Origin: a virus
Reading direction: 5' to 3' (one strand)
Virus record (IMG/VR): IMGVR_UViG_3300036717_000121
Span: 1 to 40,973 of that record
Length of the DNA: 40,973 bases
Each line of letters opens with the position of its first letter. Position 1 is the first letter of the stretch. Of the stretch, positions 23,171 through 25,131 are shown piece by piece. The notes beneath the pieces were generated by a model, which saw only the letters and a program-made list of their open reading frames with translations, ran no database searches and was not told the DNA's origin. Made by a program: the position numbers and the translations under genes.

Positions 23171-24889
23171 TTAAGCGAGTGTCGCACGTAAGTTGAGTAC
23201 CCAAAGATCGTTCGTAATACGTGGAACCTCTGCGAATTTGTACCCAACAGAAGCATTCAACGCTAATGGACCATCATAGATAGGCGGTCTATAAATGAAG
23301 GCTGCAGAATAACCATCTTGTTCGATACATGCATATGCTTCCATACCAACACAGAAGATGTTATATACGGTGTTACCGTTAGCAGATGCGTTTGCTACAG
23401 AAGAACCGATAGATGAAATAAGGAACCGAAGGTTACCTATTGCACCCCATTCTGACTGTAATGCGTTCATAGGCGCTGGATACTGGTTTACTTGTATAAA
23501 GCCAGAAACTGCGTCTAAGTTACCCGTTAACTGCGTAGAGCAGAGAGCGAAATAAGCATTACGTACAGGAGCTGTACCAAATTTATCTGCCCCTTCGATG
23601 TTATCCATAATTGTGTATGCATTATTATTAAGTAATGCACGAACAACTGTGTCCACATCAGAACGAGTAATTTCGGTAGGGTTATCACCATTCACACCGC
23701 CAGTACAGTTAATGAATGACGCGGTAGACGCCAACATATCACGGGTTAACTGATCTTCAGTTTGTCGTAAAGATACACCAAGACGTGCTGCGCATTCGTT
23801 TAATCAGTTCTGTTACTTTTATGACCTATTGCTAGGCGGGCAAACCTCTTCGGATTCGCCTCTCTATCTTTCGAATAGAGTTCAGACTATCGCATCCACT
23901 TTCGTGGCCTTCTCGTTTAGTCGTTCAGCGTGGACTTTTTCATTAATTACAGTATAATAGTTAATGAAAGGATTCATATGGGTAAAATTGTTAACTTTAA
24001 GACTAATCATTCTATTGCAGAAATCGCTTATCTCGCTGGCCTTATAGACGGTGAGGGATGTATATATATTGGCCATACAAAACAAGGAAAATATGGTAAC
24101 GGCTATCAATGGCATTCTATGCTCAAGATTACAAGCTGCGATGAAGAGCTCGTAGTATGGCTTGAGAATACTTTTGGCGGATCCAAAGACTCGCGCTATA
24201 GATGGACGAGCAAAAAGAAATTCACTCGACCTGTTTATAACTGGCAAGCAACTGGTCCCATGTTGGATTATTTGTTGCCGATAGTTAAACCATATTTGAT
24301 TATCAAAAAGAAACAGTGCGATGTTATGATTCGCTACAGACTCACTTCCAAGAATATTGGCAGCAAGAGACTTCCGCCCGAAATTACTGAGCAGCGCCTG
24401 ATGCTGTTGAGTGAGTTGAGAAATCTTAATTCGCGTTTCCATGATCATCCTCTTAAAAATCCTTCGCCCTTGTTACCATAGCTTTCGCCGTAGGCTTCCA
24501 AGTCAATTAGAGAAGGTTTTAATCCCGCATTAAACTTTACGGGATCCTGATTCTGGAGTGTAACTTGTTCATTAAGTTGCACATAGGTCAAAGTTCCAGA
24601 ACCAGACATACGGCACCTACGCTTTACCGTAAAAACTGATCTTAGCATCGATATCAACTGCAGTAAGATTCTGTGGTGGTGGCGTAACACCAGAATTTCC
24701 TAGTGGAACCATCGCAGTGTTAAGAGGGTTATAACGACGCATACGCAGTGTTGTACCACCATTACGGGGCATATTCTTACGCATCGCAGGTATTTTGTGG
24801 ATCATATTTGGAACCGGAACAGATAAGAGTTTATAACTAAAACTCTGCTGCACCGGAGCAGGTAATGAACTCGTAGTAGTAATTGACAT
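23171..24889 (-). CDS. Major capsid protein, N4-gp56-like, interrupted by two insertions (315 aa after removal)
   Basis: Coding parts on the minus strand are 24889-24626, 24588-24539 and 23804-23171. Joined they give 948 nt, an exact multiple of three, and 315 residues with no internal stop. The N-terminus (MSITTTSSLPAPVQQSFSYK, then RKNMPRNGGTTLRMRRYNPL) and the segments AVDIDAKISFYG, TYVQLNEQVTLQNQDPV and LNECAARLG match the N4-gp56 capsid family pattern, in which a YG-Y-turn leads to a DPVLNE-type helix. The C-terminal part (RSDVDTVVRALLNNNAYTIM) contains the P-domain-like region. The start ATG 24889 has AAGGGAATACT upstream; a longer frame to 25060 begins inside the tRNA and is rejected. 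Without removal, stops lie in both interruptions. Confidence 0.85.
23931..23958 (+). promoter_or_regulatory. Intron-internal promoter for the antisense endonuclease
   Basis: TGGACT (23931-23936) and a perfect TATAAT (23953-23958) are 16 bp apart on the plus strand. It is 20 bases before the endonuclease ATG with AAAGGA between. The promoter lies inside the intron and runs opposite to the capsid gene. Confidence 0.65.
23978..24481 (+). CDS. LAGLIDADG homing endonuclease, antisense in the intron (167 aa)
   Basis: Start at ATG 23978 because AAAGGA sits 8 bases upstream and a sigma70-like promoter lies ahead. The motif IAYLAGLIDGEGCIYIGHTK (residues about 14-33) is a single LAGLIDADG motif with the catalytic Asp/Glu, as in one-motif enzymes that act as homodimers. 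KSYxxW-type strands follow (SMLKITSCDEELVVWLENTF, NWQATGPMLDYLLPIVKPYL), typical of this family. It is on the strand opposite to the capsid gene and its 3' end overlaps the 5' core of the intron. Such enzymes cut intronless alleles so that the intron spreads. Confidence 0.9.
   Translation: MGKIVNFKTNHSIAEIAYLAGLIDGEGCIYIGHTKQGKYGNGYQWHSMLKITSCDEELVVWLENTFGGSKDSRYRWTSKKKFTRPVYNWQATGPMLDYLLPIVKPYLIIKKKQCDVMIRYRLTSKNIGSKRLPPEITEQRLMLLSELRNLNSRFHDHPLKNPSPLLP
24589..24625 (-). other. 37-nt capsid-gene insertion with group I P1/P10 hallmarks but no core
   Basis: Starts AAAG and ends G like the large intron. The exon end UACGGU (24631-24626) pairs with GCCGUA (24614-24609) with U.G at the junction. 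UAGGU (24619-24615) pairs with the 3' exon ACCUA (24588-24584). It contains an in-frame TAG (24619-24617). Only 37 bases lie between the exons, too few for any ribozyme. Removing it gives TTT TAC GGT ACC TAT GTG, in frame and as expected for the capsid family. Could be a deleted intron, a bypassed segment or an assembly gap. Confidence 0.75.
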
Positions 24890-25054: not shown

Positions 25055-25131
25055 TGGCATCCGTGGAGAGAATCGAACTCATCATTTTCAGGTTGAAAAC
25101 CTGAGGTCCTAACCATTTAGACGACACGGAC
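25055..25131 (-). tRNA. trnE(ttc): tRNA-Glu (anticodon TTC), CCA encoded
   Basis: On the minus strand the acceptor GTCCGTG pairs with CACGGAT (one G.U). A D-arm with AAATGGTTAGGA, an anticodon stem CAGG/CCTG around TTTTCAA (anticodon at 25095-25097), and a T-loop GTTCGATTC are all present. The discriminator G is followed by encoded CCA. It lies 166 bases upstream of the capsid start, in the same transcription direction. The gene reads GAA and perhaps GAG codons. Confidence 0.9.

Follow-up and report, generated by a model that had tools for sequence, protein, structure and literature searches.

A coreless insert with group I-type splice signals in a phage capsid gene and its probable reliance on the ribozyme of a neighbouring intron

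The split capsid gene

The window analysed here is the IMG/VR virus record IMGVR_UViG_3300036717_000121 over its whole length of 40,973 bp. It encodes a P22-like portal protein (PF16510), a large terminase, and a capsid protein of PHROG 1357, a family of major head proteins, and therefore represents a tailed phage. The capsid gene lies on the minus strand as three exons split by a 37-nt insert and a 734-nt intron (Table 1), and this report concerns the short insert, referred to as the mini-intron, and its relation to the large intron, referred to as the helper. An earlier note on the window had claimed that the insert shifts the frame and holds a TAG, that its exact removal restores the expected protein, and that a large intron lies beside it. 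All of this was borne out, with the TAG lying in the upstream frame and removal of the insert yielding ...SFYG-TYVQLNEQ....

Table 1. Exons, introns and pairing strands of the capsid locus in the window
Feature	Position	Strand	Remarks
Capsid exon 1	24626..24889	-	open reading frame (ORF); start codon at 24889; ends ...FYG, last codon GGT
Mini-intron P1, exon strand UACGGU	24626..24631	-	U.G at the splice junction
Mini-intron, 37 nt, coreless, in-frame TAG, ends in G	24589..24625	-	69 distinct homologous inserts of 28-59 nt
Mini-intron P10 guide UAGGU	24615..24619	-	pairs with ACCUA at 24584-24588
Mini-intron internal guide GCCGUA (P1 intron strand)	24609..24614	-	pairs with exon UACGGU
Mini-intron anchor strand CUGGUUCUGGA, in the tail, 3 nt past the guide	24595..24605	-	pairs with 24547-24557, 11 bp, one G.U
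Capsid exon 2, 50 nt, TYVQLNEQVTLQNQDPV	24539..24588	-	uninterrupted in intronless relatives
P10 exon strand ACCUA	24584..24588	-	pairs with the UAGGU guide
Anchor helix exon strand UCCAGAAUCAG	24547..24557	-	ends 8 nt before the helper 5' splice site
Helper P1, exon strand GAUCCCGU	24539..24546	-	directly adjoins the anchor helix
Helper group I intron, 734 nt, internal guide sequence (IGS) GCGGGAUU at 24521-24528, 3' end ..AGUAACAGAACUG	23805..24538	-	RF00028 14.9 bits, below gathering score
LAGLIDADG homing endonuclease ORF within the helper	23930..24481	+	PF00961 E 9e-7; PHROG 5046
Capsid exon 3	23171..23804	-	ORF, PHROG 1357, relatives

Splice signals of the mini-intron and their recurrence

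In group I introns, the 5' splice site is set by the helix P1 and the 3' splice site by P10 (PMC3984707). Both of these pairings, as proposed in the earlier note, are present at the window insert: UACGGU at the end of exon 1 pairs with the guide GCCGUA, with a U.G at the junction, and the UAGGU directly before this guide pairs with the ACCUA that opens exon 2. The minimum-energy RNAfold structure of positions 24525-24650 (minus strand) holds P1, the P1 of the large intron, and an 11-bp helix of the mini-intron tail with exon 2, which the earlier note had missed and which we call the anchor helix, with a z-score of -1.8 that is not strong by itself.

An IMG/VR search with exon 3 alone returned 80 relatives, most of which have no insert at the codon boundary between FYG and T, while 16 of the parsed ones carry inserts there that differ in sequence and length. 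The collection was widened by pattern scans (one of which gave 82 stretches) and by a search from a more distant capsid, which brought the total in IMG/VR relatives to 69 or more different inserts, 28-59 nt in length (median 34), all at this same codon boundary. A second record of the window's insert, L001, is 99.98% identical to the window over 6.2 kb. This recurrence of differing inserts in independent contigs is far beyond chance and is not an artefact. An in-frame stop is present in 67 of the 69, and their lengths span all three classes modulo 3. Thus the insert cannot be read as codons, a possibility that the earlier note had raised for homologous capsids, and its removal is needed for the full capsid protein.

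The exon 1 end is TAYGGT in every carrier; empty sites have freely GGA, GGC, GGG, or GGT. P1 with its terminal U.G was found in 41/41 rows and in 16/16 of the unbiased set, with a compensatory change in L167, where exon (UAUGGU) and guide (GCCAUA) are both altered to give a UA pair, and with one pair replaced by G.U in L071. For P10, the first codon of exon 2 is matched by the three bases 5' of the guide in the combinations ACC-GGU, ACU-AGU, ACA-UGU, and ACG-CGU, and 68/68 mini-introns have a complementary base facing the third position of this codon (GC 47, AU 9, UA 7, CG 5). The P10 agreement seen in the first 30 inserts was reached in 0 of 100,000 permutations, and in L316 a CAA codon faces a UUG guide, so that every one of the three pairs is compensated. 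A 3'-terminal G, equivalent to the omega-G of group I introns, closes all 16 inserts of the unbiased set and all 30 of the first collected; it was not required in those sets, whereas the search expression for the later sets did require it. The earlier note had likened both ends of the insert to those of the large intron, and the terminal G is indeed conserved, but the AAAG start is not conserved among mini-introns.

A catalytic core (P3-P8 with the P7 guanosine site) was not found in any mini-intron, all of them being 28-59 nt long, too short for such a core, and almost wholly taken up by P1, P10, and the anchor strand, and an Rfam scan gave no match at the window insert, in agreement with the statement of the earlier note that no ribozyme is present. 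Because this core test fails, we do not file the mini-intron as a group I intron. Some of the longer mini-introns (51-59 nt; L206, L221, L246, L313, and L316) have an extra hairpin in the P1 loop, seen by eye.

De novo scans for the full signature in 1.8 and 3.2 Mb, tuned to this helper family, found mini-introns at this capsid site only, and a scan of terminase relatives, tuned in the same way, found none. Annotated phage records hold only distant capsids (22-29% identity), which leaves the mini-intron without a known cultured carrier. Among genome contigs, five relatives of this capsid came from metagenome-assembled genomes (L201-L205), with doubtful binning and none shown to carry a mini-intron; their labels are Parachlamydiaceae, Simkaniaceae, Thermotoga, and Lokiarchaeota.

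The anchor helix and the helper intron

A complete group I intron of 195-1215 nt lies 26-86 nt downstream of every mini-intron whose contig continues, and in all of these cases its 3' end is AGUAACAGA-like. It is located at one of three sites in the capsid, after V154, P162, or S174. These helpers have the features of group I introns, namely P1 with an IGS, the P7 strands, and an omega-G, and the compact ones (195-225 nt) align over the conserved core with P7 strands ACGACU/AUAGUC. At the Rfam gathering score, neither the mini-introns nor most helpers were found; the helper of L115 reaches 40.1 bits against RF00028 (E 9.5e-7) and the others are weaker, so this family of phage introns is probably under-annotated. 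The LAGLIDADG ORF of the window helper runs opposite to the capsid gene strand.

Past the guide and usually three unpaired bases, the tail of each mini-intron pairs with exon 2 over 7-15 bp, usually 9-12. The place of this anchor helix depends on the site of the neighbouring intron, being exon positions 10-18 for V154, about 31-42 for P162, and about 68-78 for S174. In 68/68 cases, 7-9 nt (exactly 8 in 53) separate the end of the helix from the helper 5' splice site, as against 11% expected from shuffled tails, and the mean pairing score is 21.9 vs 13.1 for shuffled tails. This spacing is kept whether the helper starts 26, about 50, or 86 nt downstream. As the helper P1 is 8 bp long in 64/64 helpers examined, the anchor helix and the helper P1 follow each other on the exon strand without a gap.

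Covariation was counted over P1, P10, and the anchor together in 41 distinct rows of the V154 class. Paired cells made up 95.8%, and there were 106 doubly changed cells vs 35.7 +/- 5.1 in shuffles and at most 23 with the partner slid, although these statistics overstate independence because the rows are related by descent. At single positions, as many as five pair types occur, for example UA 21, CG 8, GC 5, UG 5, and AU 1. On these comparisons of sequence, the insert has a group I-type splice-site architecture that covaries and is coupled to the neighbouring intron.

For co-occurrence, we used two search sets picked regardless of the mini-intron, in which a few intronless rows were counted as having a helper (a conservative choice). 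Mini-intron and helper were found together in 19 rows, the mini-intron alone in 0, the helper alone in 20, and neither in 68 (Fisher p 1.3e-10, a value that again overstates independence since the rows share descent). A weakly supported tree of 132 distinct exon-3 proteins has the corresponding counts 47, 0, 18, and 67, and about 31 changes of mini-intron presence. A mini-intron accompanies 46/46 distinct V154 introns collected. Since none of these V154 introns lacks one, the two may be mobile as a unit, perhaps through homing that co-converts the exon. Introns after GACCCT mostly have no mini-intron, the exceptions being L155, L206, L285, and L313.

Three further observations concern these genes. 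V154 helpers with a 5' extension of about 40 nt (L012, L025, L028, L057, and others) contain a CUUGGUUUUGUAA-like sequence at about +25 to +40 of the intron whose complement, judged by eye, lies in their own 3' exon (10-12 bp, about +5 to +17); this may form a second intron-exon anchor in the same style as that of the mini-intron. The capsid genes of L014, L025, L118, and L139 hold up to four or five inserts per gene, and in some of them a mini-intron, a V154 intron, and a P162 intron follow in a row. In the window, the ATG of exon 1 was chosen because relatives align from about residue 58 of a longer ORF, and a tRNA-Glu gene (TTC; 25055-25131, minus strand) lies directly upstream of the capsid gene and overlaps the start of that longer reading.

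Proposed splicing by a shared core, alternatives, and known systems

The insert is, in our judgement, very likely a non-autonomous, coreless mini-intron of group I type that is anchored to a helper ribozyme whose active site would splice both. It also appears likely that we are dealing with a natural system of one ribozyme and two introns, in which coreless mini-introns persist via a guide strand anchored against the P1 of the adjacent intron. The earlier note had suggested a coreless intron spliced in trans by the neighbour's ribozyme. The reliance on the neighbour is supported, with mini-introns found only beside a group I intron and carrying a second guide against its P1; because this second guide abuts the neighbour's P1, a cis tether is a more natural arrangement than free trans-splicing.

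We infer the splicing itself, the helper core as catalyst, and the order of events from sequence as follows. In the RNA, the mini-intron would form P1 with exon 1, its U.G marking the 5' splice site, and P10 with the first bases of exon 2, with the omega-G at its end, while its tail would form the anchor helix with exon 2, abutting the P1 of the complete downstream intron. The anchor would set the mini-intron P1 at the base of the helper P1, leading to its acceptance by the helper core, where it would take the place of the helper P1. Guanosine would then cut after UACGGU in the helper core, exon 1 would be joined to exon 2 at the omega-G, whose docking is expected to involve a P9.0 contact, and with these two transesterifications the mini-intron would be gone; the anchor would fall away and the helper would remove itself as usual. 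In an alternative order, the helper would excise first and act while guide-bound to exon 2. In either order it would have to be present during removal of the mini-intron, because the position of its splice site is meaningless after its loss. That such chemistry is possible is known from engineered group I ribozymes: those built for trans-excision can take out as many as 28 nt with the help of P1, P9.0, and P10, and the spliceozyme design takes out 100 nt (PMC4094466).

Two further points weigh on the other side, in addition to the shared descent behind the covariation and Fisher values. A scan for spliced-looking alleles gave 7 empty sites only and no spliced cDNA. Only five independent pairs on the tree are well supported (helper changing along with the mini-intron in 3.7 and against it in 0, p 0.125), so that co-occurrence corrected for phylogeny is not significant by itself. 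The fixed geometry of the anchor is the stronger argument.

Excision of the mini-intron by some other catalyst, either a trans-acting, unlinked group I ribozyme or the combination of a protein nuclease and an RNA ligase, would make the neighbouring intron merely a genetically linked one. We consider this unlikely, even though the mini-intron has its own P1, P10, and omega-G, engineered trans ribozymes excise such segments (PMC4094466), and joint travel of the two introns could stem from homing, because it accounts neither for the constant 8-nt distance between the tail pairing and the helper 5' splice site at all three helper positions nor for the absence of mini-introns without a helper. We regard it as quite improbable that the mini-intron P1 instead offers the helper a 5' splice site of an alternative or regulatory kind, at which exon 2 is skipped or helper splicing is delayed, with the anchor as a switch of capsid expression. 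Tandem group I introns are known to skip exons of 23-34 nt in Twort orf142 and Coxiella 23S rRNA (PMC10136302), and the anchor helix does contact the helper P1. However, in 68/68 cases P10 and the omega-G mark the end of the mini-intron as a 3' splice site, which skipping does not need, and exon 2 codes for conserved capsid residues, with the skipping of a 26-, 50-, or 86-nt exon breaking the frame in most loci. A regulatory role could nevertheless be an added function of the mini-intron.

A capsid protein made in two pieces, with translation stopping in the insert and restarting at a start codon within it, is very improbable. It would account for the in-frame stops, and an in-frame ATG, GTG, or TTG open to exon 2 is present in 34/69 inserts, with AGGUG upstream of the ATG in the window, but half of the inserts have no such start, the exon beyond is split again by the helper, intronless relatives make one chain, and the covariation of P1 and P10 is left unexplained. 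We give hardly any credence to a ribosome bypass of the T4 gene 60 type, which the earlier note had offered from a GGT that does recur 22 nt after the first in the right frame in the window and from a hairpin at the take-off site. Only 7/69 inserts offer GGT as a matching codon for landing and 10/69 any GGN, the 29-nt insert of L025 has no GG anywhere, and bypass has no need for covarying P10 and anchor pairs. Just as implausible is the suggestion, also from that note, that the group I-like signals are what is left of a full intron after an assembly collapse or a recent deletion removed the core, given 69 different sequences of 28-59 nt in separate contigs under strong compensatory selection and no full-length intron at this site in any locus examined, though a full intron is a possible remote evolutionary origin.

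If the shared-core reading is correct, the mini-intron has partial counterparts in several known systems. Like phage group IA introns such as T4 td and Twort orf142, it has a terminal U.G in P1, an IGS, P10, and a terminal G, and it sits in a phage structural gene with an in-frame stop near its 5' end; unlike them, it is 28-59 nt long, has no P3-P9 core or P7 guanosine site, and would depend on a neighbour. A ribozyme of its own is what defines a natural group I intron. The mini-intron may work like the substrate of the engineered trans-excision-splicing ribozymes and spliceozymes, in which a group I core recognises P1 and P10 (with P9.0) on another RNA segment and removes it (PMC4094466), but it is natural, linked in cis, and equipped with its own IGS and anchor strand. 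As in the tandem introns of Twort orf142 and Coxiella 23S rRNA (PMC10136302), two cooperating splice units would flank a very short exon, whereas there both introns have complete ribozymes.

The degenerate group III and mini group II introns of Euglena chloroplasts, about 90-120 nt long, are similar in that catalytic parts are assumed to be supplied in trans, but they belong to the group II lineage, and we know of no guide helix that ties them to a neighbouring intron. T4 gene 60 and the mitochondrial byp elements are likewise short inserts that leave the protein intact; those are tolerated in translation and need matching take-off and landing codons, which are absent in 59-62 of the 69 mini-introns. 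In the split, trans-spliced group I introns of mitochondria, splice site and core are also on separate segments, but there one intron has been cut in two, while here two introns would share one core. A literature search among open-licence papers found no report of a coreless or mini group I intron, so that the chemistry is known and the natural arrangement is new as far as the literature could be checked. To our knowledge, these would be the smallest introns with group I splice signals.

If this arrangement is true, nature would here have its own version of the engineered spliceozymes, and group I introns would offer a parallel to the change from introns that splice themselves to introns that depend on a separate catalytic RNA. 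The mini-introns would keep only their splice sites and rely on a neighbour, mirroring in a simple bacterial virus the origin proposed for spliceosomal introns. With compact helpers of 195-225 nt, the principle of one core and two substrates is testable in transcripts of about 300 nt, and the mini-introns would offer a naturally optimised template for RNA excision tools. More generally, short inserts that break the frame of phage genes may be introns that gene callers and Rfam overlook.
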